A stretch of 64,000 nt of DNA. It comes from Psococerastis gibbosa (Eukaryota; Arthropoda; Insecta; Psocodea; Psocidae). The number at the start of each line of letters is the position of its first letter. Position 1 is the first letter of the stretch. The position numbers and the translations under genes are program-made. The DNA lies in NCBI GenBank assembly GCA_963971405.1, contig OZ020484.1:19840001-19904000 (forward strand), given 5' to 3'. Under the pieces are notes generated by a model, which did not search any database, had not been told where the DNA came from, and saw only the letters and a list, made by a program, of their open reading frames with translations. This document shows, one piece after another, positions 22,937 through 60,143 of the stretch.

Positions 22937-25434
22937 ATGTCAGGAGTTGAAGACGTGATTGTAGATGGGGAAGCTCCCACCACCCCCGAGGGTTGGGGAA
23001 TGGATGGCAAGGGAAAGATGCCAACTGTGGAAGAGATCATGGCATTCATTGACCAAGCTGCGGGGATTTCGGACGAGGAGAAAGCGCAAATCAAGGAGGA
23101 CGTCATCAAGTCTCACAACGATAGGTTAGAGATGTTGGACGGGGCGCAATTTGGGGAGGGGGCAGCTGCCGCAGCCGCCGCCGGGGGCTTATTCGCACCC
23201 AACACTCTACTTTTTGTAGGCCTGCTACTTCTCATTGCTCTCATTCTTGGTGAGTGAAAACTGTTGGTAACTAAATGTAAATATTAGCACATCTGTGTCG
23301 TACCTTGACTTGCTCAGTTACGTGTTAAAGAATAAGGAACGCGTCATGAATTACCAAATTAAGAGGACACGTGTCATACTGTAATACGTTTGCCTGTAGA
23401 TGTGTCAGTGTGATTTTGTTATACGTTGGCGTTTAACCTAGTCTTCAAATGATGCACTGATTTTTGAATGCTACAATAATAGGCATTAATGGTACTGTGT
23501 AGTAAATATTATAATATAGGCTACGTTTTATAATATTAATAAATAACAGTAGCTGAACAATACAAAATAGACAAAAGACGACTTTGTTGAGTACCTATTT
23601 TGTGATATCATGTAGGCCGACAAGTTATACTGTTATTGCACCTCCACGTGTGCAAAAAAAATATATAATTCCTCGATTAGGAAGTATTGTAGGTAGGTAA
23701 TGTAAATTGAGATTAATTAGACTGTTTTTTTTTTTTCATTATGTGTGTTGTCTGCTTAGAATAAGGTGACCATGTATCCCTTTTTCAAAATTTATTTCGA
23801 TTCCATGCAAGTAAAGTAGGAGCAAAATGGCCAATTGGATTTGTGTTTTCGGGGGGGGGGGGCGAAAAATTTATACCAACTTCCTGTACACATATAGGGA
23901 AGGGCAAGAGGGTGGCTTCGAAGAGGTAAAGACCCCAAAACAATATTTATAACTTGTAGCTTAACAATTTCCATCCCGTATTTCATCCCTGATTCTATCT
24001 GTTTTCCAACCAAGAGGGGAAGTTAATGTGCTTCATAAGCTAAAGTGCCAAATTTTGAGGGGATGGGAGAGGTTTTTGAAAAATATGATTTGAGACATTT
24101 CTAGTTACAGAATATCTTCGAGGGCATGTAAAGTAGACGGTCCCTATATGAGAAAACACAAAGTTGGCTTAGAAATAGAACATATCTTTTTTTGCATTTA
24201 TTTAAGGTAGACAAGATAAACATTTAGTAGGGTAGATTTTTGTATTGTTGGAAGTCATCAATTCTTAGCCGATATCAATTTGAAACTGGCCATAAGACCA
24301 TCGTAATAGTTGGAGACTTTTAGTTTAGTAGATATAGTAACTGTTCATTAACCAATTTTGGATTAATGACTTCAATATATTGTATCATTAAGCTTGACAC
24401 GAAAATCTGATAAGATGATTATAACGATAGGCACGATAGCATTATGCTTTGAGAGTTCAATAAACATACAGTATACGTATACCTATTGTTATCTATTGCA
24501 TGTTTGCATTCAGCAAATACAGTTATTTTTTGCCGCATGGCCACGCCAAAAGATAGGCCATAGAATTATCTTGAATCACTATTGAGCCTACAACTTGATA
24601 ACTGAGTTCAAACCCCTAGATAAGACGCTGCTCAAGGGTCACCACCACAACGTCCCTCACTTCTCATAAACGCTTGAAAAATCTTTGGTAAGGTAAGGAA
24701 TACTGGACGGCATCGCCATCTACCAATACATGGTGAAACCGTGTAGAATTTCTTACCGAGACTAAACATAATAGTCTCCATAGTAACTTTGTAAAACTTG
24801 CTGTCACTCATTGTTAAAATTAATAACAGTTTTACGAAATAAAATTAAATTAAATTAAAACATACACAACCGGTTTCGGCTCACGTCATCGTCCTTTTTT
24901 TATATTTTATTACGTAAAACTATACAAAGTTATTAATTTTAACAATGAGTGTCTTACCGAGACGTTTCAAAGCAATGACGGAAAGTGGGAACCCCCCTAA
25001 GTGAGCCACAATACCTAGAAAGTATAAACTTATAAAGGCACCAATTTCCTAAACAAATAAATAATAAATAAACATTAGCTTTTTTTTCTATCACTAAACC
25101 AACCTTGCGGAGTTAGGGCTATAAAACCCTCTCTTACACTTCACTAGAAAAGCCCGGGACCACCTGCTTTACTTACCCTCCGAAGCATGGCCCGAAAACA
25201 TAGCAAGTACGGGACTAGCACCAACAACCTTTCGCGTGAAAGTCGGAGTCCGTACCACTACTCTACATGTCCTGACTGTTTCTGACATGTTTCTTCTGTC
25301 TAAGGTTGTACAATTTATTTTCAGGTTTATTTGTATACAAGATTATTAAAGTGGAAAAGGACAAGGAAAATGCAAAGCTCCTCAAGAAGAAATCGAGGGA
25401 TGAAAGGAGAAAGAATAAGACGAAAAGAAGTTAA
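22937..25434 (+). CDS. small single-pass membrane protein, 140 aa, two coding exons (22937-23249 joined to 25325-25434)
   Basis: The ATG at 22937 has G at -3 (GTGGCCATGT). Exon 1 codes 104 residues plus one base and ends at CTTG|GTGAGT. The next exon follows TTATTTTCAG at 25325 and completes the split Gly codon, then runs to TAA at 25432. Residues 1-75 are acidic and soluble, with a helix-prone stretch (VEEIMAFIDQAAGISDEEKAQI, about 31-52). An Ala/Gly run (76-84) precedes a single strongly hydrophobic segment (about 91-112). The tail (113-140) is very basic (KLLKKKSRDERRKNK). The exact phase match, the hydrophobic segment continuing smoothly across the junction and the poly(A) signal 40 bp after the stop make this a real gene. 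I do not recognise a named family; no signal peptide is seen. The intron is 2075 bp and holds two mobile elements. Confidence 0.85.
23252..24114. other. 5' part of intron 1
   Basis: AT-rich intron sequence with a G run (about 23851-23861). No exon-like frame seen. A worn plus-strand SINE-like piece (GGCATGTAAAGTAGACGGTCC ... GTTGGCTTAGAAATAGAA) follows at about 24120-24200. Confidence 0.5.
24763..24951. mobile_element. foldback element with 12-bp target duplication, copy 2 (189 bp), in the intron
   Basis: The reverse complement of the element at 16764, including the asymmetric tail (here at the left: AATAGTCTCC, CTTTGTAAAACTTGCTGTCAC) and the AACCGGTTTCGGCTCAC core. The second core arm has been deleted and replaced by a T run. 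TCTTACCGAGAC flanks both sides exactly (24751-24762 and 24952-24963). Confidence 0.85.
25078..25280 (-). mobile_element. tRNA-derived SINE, full-length copy in the intron
   Basis: Minus-strand copy ending 45 bp before the exon 2 acceptor. It shows GGACTCCGACTTTCACGCGAAAGG, a decayed B box (GGTTGTTGGTGCTAGTCCC), the GGCCATGCTTCGGAGGG body, the AAGCAGGTGGTCC segment and the TTTAGTGATAGAAAAAAAAGC tail. Confidence 0.8.
25325..25434 (+). CDS. exon 2 of the 140-aa membrane-protein gene
   Basis: Begins after a T-rich acceptor (CAATTTATTTTCAG). It codes the last third of the membrane segment (LFVYKII) and the basic cytosolic-type tail, too short to be seen as an ORF on its own. It is reported here because the gene cannot be understood without it. 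Confidence 0.85.
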
Positions 25435-35277: not shown

Positions 35278-35617
35278 CATTAGTCGAAATCCATTTATTA
35301 TTACGGGAGCTACCACCAAACCGTGGATGACGGTGGTGTGCAGACAATCATGTCTTCAGCGGAGAAATTTCCTATGCCACTCATATTTACGCCTGATCAC
35401 ACTTCATTTTTGTGCAATCTAGGTTCCACAAAAAATGTATGGTCTTCTTACAGTTCGTAAAACAGAAAATGCATCCCCCGCAAACTGGGTTATTTATTTT
35501 ATTGCTACCAAACTGGTAAGTAAATTAAGAAAGAAAATTGTCTTTATTTTCCATGTGGGCGAATTTTGGGCCTTTCGGCCCACTCCTACAATTAACCCGT
35601 GACTGGTGGACAAACAA

Positions 35618-35971
35618 TCTTCTTAGTGTACCGTGATGATAAAGCAGTTATTTGCTTCTTATTAAGAAACTCTGATCACTTTACGGGTCCAGCGTTAAGA
35701 GGGATCAAGCCCGCAAACCCTAAAAGCCGTGATCTGCGTTGCACTTCATTCCATAGCCATAGCTTTAGCAGACAATGTACCCTCCTTTCATACAAGCAGT
35801 TCTGTTACCTCAAATGTTTCAATGCAGGGCGCAATTTTATGATATATCCTCCGGGTTGTTTTCTATATATCGTGAATAGGGGCCCTGAGGATTTATTCTT
35901 TATTCTTTATTCTTTATTCTTTATTCTTTATTCTTTATTCTTTATTCTTTATTCTTTATTCTTTATTCTTT
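35618..35971 (+). repeat. repeat unit with (TTTATTC)n array, short allele
   Basis: A 274-bp unique part (35618-35891) is followed by about 11 copies of TTTATTC (35892-35971). The unique part is identical to 36290-36563 wherever I compared it. The flanks on both sides differ from those of the second copy. The 134-codon ORF over it is a translation of repeat sequence. Confidence 0.92.
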
Positions 35972-36289
35972 CTGCAGTTCAGACCATATATTGTAACATA
36001 TAACTTTCTTCAAGCCCACCGTGAATGCTCTCCTATGTTTTTTTTTTTTTAGGAGAGCTTTGACCACCTCAGATGCCCATTCTTGTTAAGATCAAGTTGA
36101 AACTTGTATCTACTACTTATAATGTTCTATCTACTGACAGTTTCACTAGAAAATGTTAGTAAAACCTTAAAAACAATGGTATAAGAGTATAGGCGGATCG
36201 AGAATTTTTTTGGGCCAAGTTTATAAAACGGAACTTGTAATGTATTTCATTTATTAGATATATTTTTTGTCAAAAAAAATCTGATTCTG

Positions 36290-36811
36290 TCTTCTTAGTG
36301 TACCGTGATGATAAAGCAGTTATTTGCTTCTTATTAAGAAACTCTGATCACTTTACGGGTCCAGCGTTAAGAGGGATCAAGCCCGCAAACCCTAAAAGCC
36401 GTGATCTGCGTTGCACTTCATTCCATAGCCATAGCTTTAGCAGACAATGTACCCTCCTTTCATACAAGCAGTTCTGTTACCTCAAATGTTTCAATGCAGG
36501 GCGCAATTTTATGATATATCCTCCGGGTTGTTTTCTATATATCGTGAATAGGGGCCCTGAGGATTTATTCTTTATTCTTTATTCTTTATTCTTTATTCTT
36601 TATTCTTTATTCTTTATTCTTTATTCTTTATTCTTTATTCTTTATTCTTTATTCTTTATTCTTTATTCTTTATTCTTTATTCTTTATTCTTTATTCTTTA
36701 TTCTTTATTCTTTATTCTTTATTCTTTATTCTTTATTCTTTATTCTTTATTCTTTATTCTTTATTCTTTATTCTTTATTCTTTATTCTTTATTCTTTATT
36801 CTTTATTCTTT
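36290..36811 (+). repeat. repeat unit with (TTTATTC)n array, long allele
   Basis: The same 274-bp unit followed by 248 bp of uninterrupted TTTATTC, about 35 copies (36564-36811). Seven being no multiple of three, the array stays open in every frame and gives the FILYSLF-repeat ORF, which is not a gene. The structure resembles a 5'-truncated retroposon with a microsatellite tail, or a locally duplicated block. Confidence 0.92.
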
Positions 36812-53444: not shown

Positions 53445-54359
53445 CTCCATGCCGAAACCTGATGGCCTAGTGTAGTGAAGACGTAGAATATTGGACAAGA
53501 ATTCGTAGCATGTAAACAGTATCCACTCTTTCGATAAATTTGAACAGGGGGGGGGGGCACGGTCCAACTTGCCCCCAGCTCCCTTTGGGGGGGGGGGGGT
53601 CTGTGCCCCCCAGCCTCGAGTAAAGTAAGACGTGGTTCATGTCTCCTCGGACCCCTTTGCAGCAATATGAATATAGGCACTCCTTTGTTAGCTTCTACAA
53701 CTATACTTTACTACTATTAAAATGCGTAAAACCCTACTATTTTACACTTATATCTTCAATTTTTTCCTTATCCTGCCCGATGACCTCATATGGTATAATT
53801 AGTTTTGCCCCCGCCATCATTCTAAGACTTTACGCCTCTGAATTGGAACAATAAAAGCGACGATAAATTGTCATTCACGTCGTTACGATTTATCGTAGCG
53901 TGTAAACCCGGCATTAGTAACTCCGATTGGCCACTGTCATCAGCTGAATTGATATGTACTAATGTACCTACCAAAATGGCGTCCCTTAACAACTGTTTTT
54001 GGTACAAATAAATTTTGACGATTGTAGCCATTCGGCAGCCACAAGGGCTATACCTATCAAAATGTCGAGAAATACTTCTTCTAAAACCTAAAATCTTTTT
54101 TCTAGCTCTCCAAATTGGTATTAACTCAGAAATTTAGCTTTAACAAAAAAACAAGTGGCATTGGCGCCTCATTGAATGTGGGGGGAGGGGACTCCGATTG
54201 GGCCTTAATAAATAATAACTAAGAAAAACAAGAAAGTAGAAACTTTGCATTTTGTCGGAAAATTGCAACGATACAGTTCGCAACAAAACGAAAGCCAGTT
54301 CATCATAATAAGAAGGGAACCTGAATTGTGATCTGAGGCCAGGATTCAATCTTCTTACA

Positions 54360-54718
54360 AAACACCCGGAAATAGACGATGGTGTCCGAAGTGGCGGCAA
54401 CCGGATTGACAGTTGCTTCGCGGCCGCTGCTGGGAAGGGTGTTGTTTACTTCCGTTCCGAGTACCGAAACACCTTCGAATTCTTATTGTATTTGTATTCA
54501 AACAATTCGAATTAATGTTTTAGTTTGGTTAACAAGTATTTATATTCAAGTGTTGCAGTGTCTATAATCATTCAAATTCAATGGTGAAGTGATTCAGTGT
54601 AAAACGTGTCACCTGTGGATTTGATCTAATAAAGGTGAAAATGATCATAACCTAACCATGTACAGTGTCATTTGTTATTCTTAGTTTTACTGGTGTTTTT
54701 TTGTGCACATTCCAAACA
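54360..54718 (+). promoter_or_regulatory. CpG-rich 5' region and leader of the small secreted-peptide gene
   Basis: About a dozen CpG dinucleotides fall within 54366-54482 (GAAGTGGCGGCAACCGG, TTCGCGGCCGCTG, TTCCGTTCCGAG) in an otherwise AT-rich neighbourhood. An upstream ORF of 62 codons starts at ATG 54379 and ends at 54567. TTCAGT at 54592 resembles an arthropod initiator. The 359 bp up to the ATG at 54719 carry no mobile element that I can see, in contrast to both sides. Confidence 0.5.
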
Positions 54719-57700
54719 ATGGAGGTTCATAAATGTCTGCTAATTCTCACCTGTGTGGCTTTTATTGCCTCCGTAGCATCTCACAGTTATAAAGGTAAGT
54801 AACGTAGATTTCAAGACTAGTTGGCAGATTCCAAGGTCATTTGCTAGAAGCCAACATTTTTGTAACGGCCATTCGTATACATACATATTACTTCATTGCT
54901 GGGTTTGGAGGGTTTGGTTTGAAATTTTTTTATAATCTACCACTACCGAATAGCTTAATTACAATGCTATTTGTAAGAAGTAGCTTTGATGTGAGAACTA
55001 CCTTTCGTACCGGAATCCCCGGAGAGTAGCCTACGTGACCGTGGTTATTTTTGCTTCCACTACACTGGCCAACCTAACTTAATAAATTAAAAATCCAGCG
55101 TAATGCATATCTAATTGGAGGACATACACTTCATATGTTTAATGTTAAGAACTTATGTGCAGCTGTTGGTATAAAAGCGCCAACTTATATTTTAGGTTCA
55201 GCCCATTTCTTAGCGGTGTTTCTAACACATCCTTTGATTACACTAACAAGTCACACTACAAGCTAGGGACGCATTACTGATTCATACAATGGAATTATGG
55301 CACCTTTATTTTAAGTTTGAAGTATGGAAATCACAGTTTAACTTTAGTCTATGCACTAACGAAGTATTTCGCACAGGGCCAAACGAAAGGCTCCTATCGA
55401 ATCCAATTTCTTAATAGCACCGTCTAATCTGTTATAATCCAAAAGTCCTTTCTGAAGGAACGAATTTCTTCCTGTCTCCAGGGTCTTATATTGTAAAGGC
55501 GGGGTTTCCACCGACGGGCTAGGGCTAAATACAAATACGGTGGCGTGGTAACAGACATACAAGACTTAGGCGGGTGTTCACCGACCTCGCATTGCAGAAT
55601 GCAAATGACATTGACGGAAATGTTTGTTTTTCTTTTTATAGAAATCTATTAAAATGTTTGTTATTAACATATCCCATGATGCAATTTTTTAATTTTAGTT
55701 TGTGATTTTACTCTATGATCATTGATCAATTTTAACTATGCATAGGGTAAAACAAACATTTCCGTCAATTTCATTTGCATTCTGCAATGCGAGGTCGGTG
55801 GAAACCCCACCTAAGTCTTGAATGTCTGTTACCACGTCACCGTATTTGTATTTAGCCCTAGCCGGTCGGTGGACACCGCGCCAAAGTGAAGTCGTTCCTT
55901 CCTCTGGTGTTGTACCCATGATTGTCCGACAATCGTTGTAGTTTTAGGTAACTTTTTTGATTTTATGTCCCGAACAGTTATTGACTTTATTAATTTTACG
56001 TTACTTATTTAGAGATTTTTTCATTTTAAAGTTCCACTACCTATTCCCAATGCATAGTAAACCATGTAAACAATGCTATCCATCTTGAATTGCCTTTGTC
56101 TTTTTTCTGGCTGTAATAAGGCCAAACCATTGACTAACATTGTTTACATGCCTGCATTTCAGAGTCTGTACTTAGCAAATGGTGCCATTTATTATTAATA
56201 ATGAAAAATCTCAGTAAATAACTGATAGCGACCAACAATTTCAACTGATTTAGTCTAGTCTTTGTCGTAAAAGTTGAGTAAAGATCAATGATTTGTGACT
56301 AAACTACTAGTATGGTAGTTTTACTGAAGTCCGAAATAAAATATTATATTTTAATACAATAGAGCGACTGACTGGCCTTGGGCCATTCCGAATTTACATG
56401 AACAGACGCAACACGCTTAGTGACAAACTGCAGATGGTGGGATGATAAAGCGGAACACATACTTTGTGAATGTCCCTCATTCACAAAGCAGAGGTATAAG
56501 CTCCTTGAATGATTCACTTCCTCTAATCCTGACTCATTTAAGAAAGTGCCTCTGCTTCGCGAGATCACTTCTTTGTACCGAGGCGGAATGTTCCAGTTAA
56601 GAGGACATGCTACGTAAAAAATGAGCACCCCAAAATATGTTGTTTTTATTGACATTTTATTTTTTATTTAATTAACAAAGCAAGTCATTAAAAATTTGGC
56701 TCATGGAAGTTGTAGAAGACTGCTTCATGCATCATGTAATAAGAAATATTAAATTTTTGGTACCTTAGTTCTTTCATTAACACCAGAACAGACTAAAATT
56801 ATGCGTATTCTGGGATTTTTGGAAGAACTACAAAACCGAAAAGTAAAAATACCCGATTATATGATGCACGAAGTAGTCTTCTACAACTTCCATGAGCCAA
56901 ACCTTTAATTACTTGCTTTGTTAATTAAATAAAAAATAAAAAGTCCGTAAAAACAACAAATTTTGGGGTGCTCATTTTTTACGTAGTATGTCCTCTTAAT
57001 TTATAAATGTTATGTGTGAAAGGACGAGTACACTATGTACTCAAGGGTACTTTTTTGAGCTGTTCAGTGAGCTAAGGGTCGGTTTATAGAAGCCGGTTGG
57101 GCGAGCGGTCTGACGCATAACAGATTAACGGAACGAAAGAAAAGCTTGCTGTTAATTTACATATAACGTAGTATCTTTTCAACACTTGGCCGAATATTAA
57201 ACACGAAATGACATGCTTATCGTTTGTTTATTTCACGCCAGCTGCCTGACCCGCTCCCGCAACCGCCTGCTATAAGCGGGCCCATAAGAAAAGCTTGTAG
57301 TTTGTTTACTTATATAGAACGTAGTCTCTTTTTAAGATAAGGTTTACAAGAAGGAAACCCTTTGCCCAATGTAAACGCGGAATGACAAGCTTATCCTATA
57401 TTTATTTTACGCCAGACCCGTTCCCCCACCCGCCTGCTATGAACGGGCCCTAAGGCTTACGCCAGTGAACTAAAAATAATATAATAGAAAGAGCGTGTAA
57501 ATATTTGTGGCAAATAATGGCAAAAATTAAATACAGGATCTAACTTGGAACCAAATAAAAATGGAACTATAGGTTTATAGCTCATAAGGGCGCACTAGTT
57601 ACTGAACAAGTAAATTAGACGTAAAATCATGTTCTATTTACATGCAAAAATGCGCAAAAAACGATTAAGTGGCAGGTCGGACGATGGTTGCAACCGTGTT

Positions 57701-58444
57701 AATTTTGTTCAGACTGCAGTATAGCCGAGCTGGGTGACCATAAAGTAAGGGATTTGTAATATTTTGTTGATACAATAGTGATCCATACTTAGTGTCATTT
57801 TCAAATAGATGCCAGTCTATTTGGATTTTATGATATGATATGATGTTACCATACCTTTTTTTTAGATTAATTCAGGGTTGAAAATGTTGAATTCAATTTT
57901 TACTTCCAGCATGTCGGAGATCAATTTGTGTACTCTTATGTATTTAACCAATGTGTCAACAGTGTGTATCAGTTATTGACTTAATAGCGTCATTAGGCGT
58001 AGGTGCGTTCCAAATAGCTGTCTTGGGTTTATCATCACTTCATCATTGGGAAGGGCCTATCTGGCAGGTGACGACTTCAGCTTGTCCCAACCTAGCAGAT
58101 ATTATTGACATATTTTTACATTGAACATGTCGACCACCGCCAATCATCAGTTGTATATACAGTATGCATGCTGCTGTATTGATCTCGAATGGAAATATTC
58201 ATTCTCCAGGCGGAGAAAATGTGAACTCAATGGAGCTTCAACTAGATAAAATTCGATGTTATTTATGTATAGCATAATTTCATCAGTTAATATAGTATAC
58301 TTCAAGATAAGCAGAAGATCCACATAGGGAATAGCGTAAATTTGCATTATTTAAAATTTAAATATTACTTTAAATCCAGGATGCAAATCTACATGTAATG
58401 GGGGAGGTGTAGCCTGTTGCGGATGCAACTATCAAAATCTGTGA
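54719..58444 (+). CDS. small secreted cysteine-rich peptide precursor, 46 aa, two coding exons (54719-54794 joined to 58380-58444)
   Basis: The ATG has an excellent context (AAACAATGG). Exon 1 codes MEVHKC followed by a hydrophobic core (LLILTCVAFIASVA) and is a textbook signal peptide of about 20-21 residues; it stops one base into codon 26 at AAAG|GTAAGT. Exon 2 follows AAATCCAG at 58380, completes the Gly codon and adds 20 more residues before TGA at 58442. The mature part is about 25 residues with five cysteines spaced C-x3-C-x6-C-C-x-C, a Gly triplet between the second and third, and a YQNL end. No dibasic cleavage site is seen within it. An odd Cys number implies a dimer, a free thiol or an undetected further exon. 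I do not recognise the family: neuropeptide, antimicrobial, or other secreted ligand are all possible. The 3.6 kb intron holds four mobile elements. Confidence 0.7.
55498..55882. mobile_element. composite nested MITE, copy 2 (385 bp), in the intron
   Basis: Outer ends GGCGGGGTTTCCACCGACGG and the complement of GGCGCGGTGTCCACCGACCG, AAA on both sides. The inner order is the same as in copy 1. The left outer end has acquired the GGCGGGGTTTCCACCGAC wording that otherwise belongs to the inner element. Confidence 0.8.
56361..56596 (+). pseudogene. LINE ORF2 C-terminal fragment with frameshift
   Basis: Plus-strand pieces read TGLGPFRIYMNRR, then in another frame CRWWDDKAEHILCECPSF, then after an in-frame stop ...PLLREITSLYRGG. 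This is the usual end of R1/jockey-like LINE proteins (zinc knuckle C-x2-C..H-x4-C with one Cys replaced by Trp, followed by an I-x-x-[FL] segment). The 3' end is interrupted by the TTAA element. The minus-strand ORF 56344-56655 is its shadow. Confidence 0.75.
56597..56999. mobile_element. TTAA-flanked MITE, copy 2 (403 bp), inserted at the LINE fragment
   Basis: TTAA at both ends (56597-56600 and 56996-56999). Arms GAGGACATGCTACGTAAAAA...TGAGCACCCC and complement are near perfect over about 45 bp; a second paired block (GTTGTAGAAGACTGCTTCATGCATCAT and complement) is shared with the element at 38288. Confidence 0.8.
57076..57450. mobile_element. MITE with a duplicated right arm, 375 bp, TAA duplication
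   Basis: Left GGGTCGGTTTATAGAAGCCGG, right complement of GGGCCCGTTCATAGCAGGCGGG, TAA at both sides (57073-57075 and 57451-57453). An almost full extra copy of the right arm (CCCGCAACCGCCTGCTATAAGCGGGCCC) lies at 57261-57288, followed by AAGAAAAGCTTGTAGTTTG similar to 57137-57158. Confidence 0.72.
58380..58444 (+). CDS. exon 2 of the small secreted-peptide gene (cysteine-rich part)
   Basis: Sixty-five bases including the stop, far too short to show as an ORF. Four Cys codons lie in the last 17 codons before the stop and five in all. The acceptor AG is preceded by a T/A-rich stretch with a modest polypyrimidine tract (TATTACTTTAAATCCAG). A frame-consistent donor is absent before the stop. Confidence 0.65.
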
Positions 58445-58536
58445 AGCGTGACTGCTAGGGAAAAGGGGGAAATGTAGCCACTGTTATGCGACTTTGCTTT
58501 GCGCTATCTAGAAGGACCAAACAATTCAGCATATAA

Positions 58537-58895
58537 TTATTGCTCAAACCTACCTTCACACTGCGTAGCTAGCCACTTTATATTCTTCATCTTCTTCCTC
58601 GACTTGTGTAGGCGACACCTAGGCATATCAAACCCTTTTGCCGATCGTGTATTATAGGAGTGCACTGTACTCATCTTCACGGCCATTAGACAATTAAAGA
58701 CATACTGGCCATGAACAGTGAGGACTCTAGCGGCTTTAAAAAGGGGTCTGCAGTGAGCAAGATACGAACTTTTTGTGACAATGCGGATAGCTAGTTTTTG
58801 TAGTAAGAGTACCTTGCTTACTCCTGCAGAGTGCCCCCATGCCAGTATACCATAATTTATGATGGTTTTAAAATTAAGTAGAAGTCTGAGGGATC
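58537..58895 (-). pseudogene. LINE reverse transcriptase C-terminus (jockey/CR1-like)
   Basis: A minus-strand frame of about 119 codons runs to TAA at 58537-58539. It reads NYGILAWGHSAGVSKVLLLQ, then KLAIRIVTKSSYLAHCRPLF and further on VHSYNTRSAKGF, a very typical order for the thumb and C-terminal region of LINE ORF2. It begins 93 bp past the end of the secreted-peptide gene and faces it. Upstream RT motifs are missing; no tail is evident on its 3' side. Confidence 0.85.
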
Positions 58896-59589
58896 TTGTT
58901 CAATCATTGCACCAAACTTATTTCCTACGTTGTAAAGAAGTCAATACTTAATCCGAAGGTTGTCGAAGTGACCTAGTGAGATCCTCACTATAAACGAATA
59001 TAGGACAGTCGCTTGTGACAGGACAAAGAATATGAGGTTATCTTTCATAGAGTTAAGTCATAATTTCTTTTGTTCGCTTTTAAAGGGAATATTCCTCTGA
59101 ATCAATTCAATAGCCAAAGTTTAGTCAGCAAAAAACTAAGTTATTGTCGAGCAAAACTATCGCCTCTATTCAGATTTTCTTATCAATTTTTCTTTCCCTA
59201 TATTTCCGCTTAATCCCTACTGCAGACGTATAATTTTCCAGTAAAAATAACACTTAACTTTTTTGATCAAATTAAAATAGGGACTTACTAATAATTTATT
59301 TTGCTTTGTTGATGATCATCAGGAAACTTCCCTGTAGCGTACGCTGATGAGTTTTATTAATTTTGGATGTGCTTCATGCGTTTCATTAGTTTTTTTTGCT
59401 ACAAACATTATTTTTAAAGCTTTTAATCTAAATTGATTAATAAATAAGTTTTTTGTTCTTCTGTTGTTACTGTTCTCAATATGATCTTAATCTCATTGGA
59501 CATATTTTTCTGATTTTATTTAATAATTTTTTGTTTTTTCATTCGAAATTCGAAGTAGTATATATATTTTCTTTCTTTAATCTTTAATC
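58896..59589. other. no gene recognised
   Basis: AT-rich and without shared repeat that I can identify. Confidence 0.3.
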
Positions 59590-59650: not shown

Positions 59651-59762
59651 ACCTGATAATAATAGTAATAAATATAATAAATCAATAATAATAATAATAA
59701 TAAATTCATCATATTATGTGATGTTTTATTCTATAATTGACTACTACTATTCATTATTCTTA

Positions 59763-60143
59763 GGCGCCCATTCCACCGACCGGCTAGGGCTATTTACAAA
59801 AACGGTGACGTGGTAGCAGACATTCAAGACTTAGGCGGGGTTTCCATCGATCTCGCATTGCAGAATGCAAATGAAATGTTTGTTTTCCTCTATGCCATAG
59901 TTAAAATTGATCAATGATCATAGACTAAAATCACAAACAAACTAAAATTAAAAAATGGCTTCATGGGATATGGTAATTACAAACATTTTAATAGATTTCT
60001 TTAAAAAGAAAAATAAACATTTCCGTCAATGTCATTTGCATTCTGCAATGCGAGATCGATGGAAACCCCGCCTAAGTCTTGAATGTCTGCTACCACGTCA
60101 CCGTTTTTGTAAATAACCTTAGCCGGTCGGTGGAATGGGCACC
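59763..60143. mobile_element. composite nested MITE, copy 3 (381 bp)
   Basis: Ends GGCGCCCATTCCACCGACCGG and complement, TTA on both sides (59760-59762 and 60144-60146). Inner ends GGCGGGGTTTCCATCGATC and complement; core with TTGATCAATGATCATAGA. Confidence 0.85.

Follow-up and report, generated by a model that had tools for sequence, protein, structure and literature searches.

Known cysteine-rich peptides and the locus

The described systems closest to the present locus are trissin, the inhibitor cystine knot, the Somatomedin-B domain and the small secreted defence or exocrine peptides of insects. Trissin has six cysteines, spaced C-x2-C-x3-C-x3-C-x7-CC, a pattern also seen in the trissin stretch of the genome studied here. 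The inhibitor cystine knot is a six-cysteine framework, and the small peptides that insects secrete for defence or from exocrine glands are made as precursors of about 45 residues, with a signal peptide and a small mature part. As to gene structure, one published account describes several insect peptide genes in which the first coding exon carries the signal peptide, in some cases with only a few further residues (PMC6585902).

The candidate gene considered here lies in Psococerastis gibbosa, the genome of which (409 Mb, 68 contigs) was searched throughout. The window, i.e. the whole stretch of 64,000 nucleotides that was analysed, begins at base 19,840,001 of contig 1. Overall, the locus is a candidate orphan secreted peptide gene of a familiar kind, with two putative coding exons (Table 1) and a predicted peptide with five cysteines, spaced C-x3-C-x6-C-C-x-C.

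Table 1. Features of the candidate peptide gene and its immediate flanks, in window coordinates.
Feature	Coordinates	Strand	Content and basis
Putative promoter and 5' leader	54300..54718	+	Composition, TCAGT, short upstream frames
Exon 1	54719..54794	+	Start codon, signal peptide, first mature residues; MEVHKCLLILTCVAFIASVASHSYK + G; phase-1 end; read directly
Putative intron	54795..58379	+	3585 bases, GTAAGT...CCAG, phase 1; contains foldback repeats
Putative terminal coding exon (exon 2)	58380..58444	+	Completes Gly, then CKSTCNGGGVACCGCNYQNL, TGA; read directly
Reverse transcriptase-like repeat fragment	58597..58873	-	About 150 bases past the exon 2 stop; alignment to copies

Like trissin, the predicted insect peptide would be small, secreted and rich in cysteine, with C-x3-C followed by CC and, a few residues later, NY, and trissin was considered as its identity on account of the CC and the NY near the end. 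However, it has neither the first C-x2-C nor the dibasic end, and its five cysteines do not follow the six-cysteine pattern. The identity was rejected because the genome's own trissin was found elsewhere, at C1:22533224-22533310 (LSCDSCGNECATACGTRNFRTCCFNYLKKR), 2.6 Mb from the gene in the window; this coding stretch is 76% identical to the Drosophila peptide used as the query (E 7.4e-11). With the inhibitor cystine knot, the predicted peptide shares the C-C-CC-C order of the first five cysteines, but it has no sixth cysteine to complete the knot order, only one residue separates its last two cysteines, and neither Pfam (no match) nor the PDB (none significant) links it to the knot. Its C-K-x-x-C followed by C-x-C, on a phase-1 exon after a signal peptide, resembles the Somatomedin-B pattern, but the further cysteines of that domain are missing, and the 25-residue part did not match the Somatomedin-B Pfam profile at E up to 10, a search in which the HMMER filters drop most very weak matches. 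As regards classical insect neuropeptide precursors, a signal peptide is present by a simple rule, but the 46-residue translation contains no dibasic site and no C-terminal amidation glycine. The likeness of the predicted precursor to insect defence or exocrine precursors of about 45 residues is one of layout, with a short precursor in which a small mature part follows the signal peptide.

Pfam gave no match to the 46-residue precursor at E up to 1, and no family at E up to 10 for the mature 25-residue part and three alternative joins, the latter again with HMMER filters that discard most very weak matches. NCBIfam gave one match at 0.64, far below the cut-off, and the PDB one match at 1.7 for the precursor, which lies over the signal peptide, and none for the mature part. 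A search of paper texts for four pieces of the peptide found none of them. Back-translated exon 2 patterns had no exact match in the viral and prokaryote collections, as expected for an insect gene, and Rfam at gathering scores found no match in the window. The preliminary description called the gene undescribed and its cysteine pattern unlike any nameable family, and within Pfam, NCBIfam, the PDB and the paper texts (four pieces) this holds, in that no match was convincing.

No significant paralogue of the peptide was found in the 409 Mb genome. A protein search of the whole genome, at E up to 10, matched at exon 1 and exon 2 only. The sole non-self match of the exon 2 peptide, on the minus strand at C13:5852641-5852703 (E 0.96), is an ungapped frame that has in common GGG..C.GC.YQ and the stop that follows. 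Given its E value, its two of the five cysteines and its position in G-rich DNA beside repeats, it is probably a chance match and was not taken as a paralogue. Since the same type of search found trissin at 7.4e-11 from a fly peptide of 30 residues, a well-conserved paralogue would probably have been detectable.

The first exon and its surroundings

The open frame starting with the ATG at 54719 (context CAAACAATGG) runs into the consensus donor AAG/GTAAGT at 54794/54795, so that the start codon in good context and the GTAAGT donor claimed previously both read as they had been described. The signal peptide claimed with them also looks genuine: judged by a simple rule for hydrophobicity and cleavage (not SignalP), it has a hydrophobic core and small residues at the cleavage site. 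If the donor is unused, the frame stops after ...SYKGK, 27 residues from the ATG; the intron must therefore be removed for any longer product. The phase-1 junction just past the cleavage region supports the exon 1/2 model, as proteins with a signal peptide have an excess of phase-1 introns near the cleavage site (PMC1626468).

The rarity of such an exon was assessed by counting objects in which an ATG is followed by a signal-peptide-like stretch and then by a MAG/GTRAGT donor. In the real sequence (264 kb, both strands, being the window and 100 kb on each side) there is one such object, namely exon 1, and there is none on one strand of 10,000 kb of order-2 Markov sequence. Looser donors give nine candidates in the same 264 kb, with AAG/GTAAGT in exon 1 alone. 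In the 409 Mb genome, exon 1 DNA matched only itself, with no second copy. Exon 1 is thus beyond chance, and very probably it is a real first coding exon.

Upstream of the ATG, positions 54300-54500 have a GC content of 0.47 and a CpG observed/expected ratio of 1.12, and TCAGT is found at 54594, all within the putative promoter and leader. Four short upstream ATG frames (2-8 codons) lie in 54500-54718, all stopping before 54719. The genome search found no second copy of the putative promoter and leader. The putative intron contains foldback repeats at 55498-55882 and 56597-56999, with arms of 82 and 192 nt. By eye, 59759-60130 resembles another copy of the foldback at 55498-55882.

The window is rich in repeats, and several of its 14 stop-to-stop frames of at least 120 residues resemble mobile elements or simple repeats by eye. 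A long open frame at 1-2370, which starts 1838 bases upstream, looks like a retroelement polyprotein, and another on the plus strand at L008:4282-5331 looks like a mariner-type transposase, both by eye. The near-identical frames at 35596-36000 and 36241-36810 enter TTTATTC heptamer arrays of 11.4 and 35.6 copies and form a duplicated segment. The plus-strand open frame at 22937-23254 (MSGVEDVIVDGEAPTTPEGW...) has a hydrophobic C-terminal end, resembles a tail-anchored protein and has no Pfam match at E up to 1. On the minus strand at L024:6123-7606, which lies about 148 kb upstream of exon 1, two frames suggest by eye a cell-adhesion protein, with resemblance to the tail of a membrane protein and to a fibronectin-like domain.

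The putative second exon and other possible partners

The acceptor ...TTTAAATCCAG ends at 58379, and exon 2 then restores the split glycine codon (GGA) and places five cysteines within 15 residues before the TGA, exactly as the preliminary description had reported. Splice sites were scored using matrices of approximate insect values taken from general knowledge rather than trained on the Psococerastis gibbosa genome, and on this scale the exon 2 acceptor ranks 14th of the 503 AGs between exon 1 and the end of the window.

The question is how often an exon of this appearance would be met by chance. Among acceptors of any quality, 23 combinations of acceptor and phase, many of them overlapping, open into a frame no longer than 60 residues with five cysteines in 15 (264 kb, both strands). 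A looser rule, which asks for phase 1, a YAG and 8 or more pyrimidines in 15, passes 4 of the 23, these being exon 2 and three others; the three others correspond to 0.05 per 9.2 kb, and ten order-1 simulated sequences of 264 kb gave 10 matches, or 0.035 per 9.2 kb. A strict rule (acceptor score of at least 7.7, phase 1, at least five cysteines in 15) gave 2 matches in 4,000 kb of order-2 simulation, or 0.0046 per 9.2 kb, rising to 5 in 4,000 kb (0.0115 per 9.2 kb) for scores of at least 5. With the score at 7.7 or above, and taking three phases and both strands, the real 264 kb holds 2 matches, exon 2 among them. Look-alikes of exon 2 are therefore as many in real sequence as in simulation, or more. 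A phase-1 cysteine-rich exon arises by chance at 0.005-0.05 per 9.2 kb, a figure still to be discounted because both the striking pattern and the acceptor, among 503 AGs, were freely chosen. The evidence that exon 2 is the real partner of exon 1 is suggestive and short of proof.

Base composition and polyadenylation signals count against the two-exon model, as do the four upstream ATGs of the leader. The GC content of exon 2 is unremarkable, 28% of sequence windows being equally GC-rich. No AATAAA follows soon after its stop, the first being at 59439, and the first ATTAAA, at 58693, is inside the reverse transcriptase-like repeat fragment. The alignment of this fragment comprises 19 other copies and the window's own, from 150 scored matches among 1813 candidates. 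A transposon origin of exon 2 was considered and rejected, since the reverse transcriptase-like similarity starts at 58597 or later and misses the exon. The 351 bases around exon 2 (58250-58600) have no second match in the genome by a search that skips simple repeats and very common words.

Other partners for exon 1 were sought among the plus-strand open frames between 54 kb and window coordinate 94 kb, 134 in all, of at least 45 residues inside the window and at least 50 beyond it. Pfam matched 10 families, each by a single frame. ATP-synt_A had an E value of 9.7e-8 and Spore_permease one of 0.0025, the remaining eight being at 0.016-0.078, and no evident extracellular domain by which exon 1 might be extended was among them. 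The match to ATP-synt_A would be consistent with mitochondrial DNA copied into the nucleus. Read with the invertebrate mitochondrial code, contig 68 has frames taken to be ND2, COX1 and COX2, and 42 of the 43 COX1 matches are outside this contig, some under the family cut-off, which suggests that nuclear copies of mitochondrial DNA are frequent in the genome. Neuropeptide motifs, looked for on the plus strand over the downstream part of the 264 kb, matched only a few strings, all judged to be chance. A cysteine-rich candidate exon at 65701 (C-x3-C-x5-CC) was rejected because it lies within a repeat with at least 40 matches.

It is quite possible, at rather less than even odds, that exon 1 is real but that its true partner is elsewhere downstream, or that there are more exons, with 58380 being a chance acceptor in front of a fortuitous run of Cys codons. 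The odd number of cysteines and the 503 AGs available in the window alone both weaken the claim of a join, cysteine-rich phase-1 frames do arise by chance in real sequence, and the rejected frame at 65701 illustrates where such patterns can come from. Introns longer than 9 kb are possible, and a strong internal-exon candidate in the right phase (106917-107056, score 19.6) is found 52 kb downstream. However, the window itself has two internal-exon candidates, and the 52 candidates over about 108 kb downstream are within the 26-61 seen in ten simulations, so that no excess of real exons is seen; nor did any of the 134 frames show an evident extracellular Pfam domain. In the sequence covered, no better partner for exon 1 than exon 2 was found, although a distant or short exon could escape.

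It is very unlikely that neither exon is real: an arrangement by chance in gene-poor DNA would suit the repeat-rich region and the partial scans, which recognised no conserved host gene in the window, but exon 1 is without equal in 10 Mb of simulated sequence. Scarcely probable is a further small exon that adds the missing cysteine to two correct ones, such as the 21-base phase-1 microexon at 57713-57733 (CSIAEL), which would make the cysteine count even, at six, and is the sole phase-1 to phase-1 internal exon passing both thresholds between the exons, but has a donor score of 4.4 and a length that easily arises by chance, a 3' extension of exon 2 being unlikely as well, with the donor-like GTGAAG at its end scoring -0.5.

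The two-exon model is favoured by the frames, the consensus splice sites, their rarity and the absence of a second copy. We give a probability of roughly 0.45 to the reading in which 54794 is joined to 58380, the gene being small, present in one copy in this insect and coding for a secreted peptide rich in cysteine. The two-exon gene put forward originally is supported in part: the signal-peptide exon with its consensus donor and the phase-1 junction hold, no second genomic copy was found, and the join to 58380 is putative.

The predicted precursor and its significance

Translation of the two exons gives 46 residues, the length previously attributed to the precursor. We infer the splice, secretion, disulfides, dimer and role of the peptide as follows. 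The intron would be removed in phase 1, joining exon 1 to exon 2. By reading, the signal peptide would most likely be cut at VAS/HSYK, after 21 residues; the simple script rule gives an earlier possible cut, at IAS/VASHSYK. Exon 2 would complete the mature peptide, HSYKGCKSTCNGGGVACCGCNYQNL, of about 25 residues, which is predicted to be rich in Gly and positively charged, with His, two Lys and no acidic residues. Given that there is no dibasic or amidation site, the mature peptide would be set free by cleavage of the signal peptide only, without a convertase.

Two intrachain disulfides may form, with the fifth cysteine pairing between two chains in a homodimer or remaining free. Of the internal arguments against the two-exon model as drawn, the odd cysteine count weighs most; it may reflect dimerisation, an exon missing from the model or a join that is due to chance. 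The fullest version of the model, in which a lineage-restricted single-copy gene encodes a secreted 25-residue peptide with a new five-cysteine framework as a disulfide-linked homodimer, is unlikely to be right in all its parts. With neither dibasic sites nor an amidation signal, the peptide is less likely to be a neuropeptide hormone of the classical type, and its most probable role, going by the sequence, would be that of an extracellular exocrine or defence effector.

In plants, peptide genes of one or two exons tend to be overlooked by gene prediction (PMC3924332). If the join is true, the locus would add an orphan secreted peptide of a size that easily escapes such prediction, with a five-cysteine spacing that has no match in the families searched (Pfam, NCBIfam and PDB), and would serve to test how far tiny peptide genes of two exons can be recognised in sequence alone.
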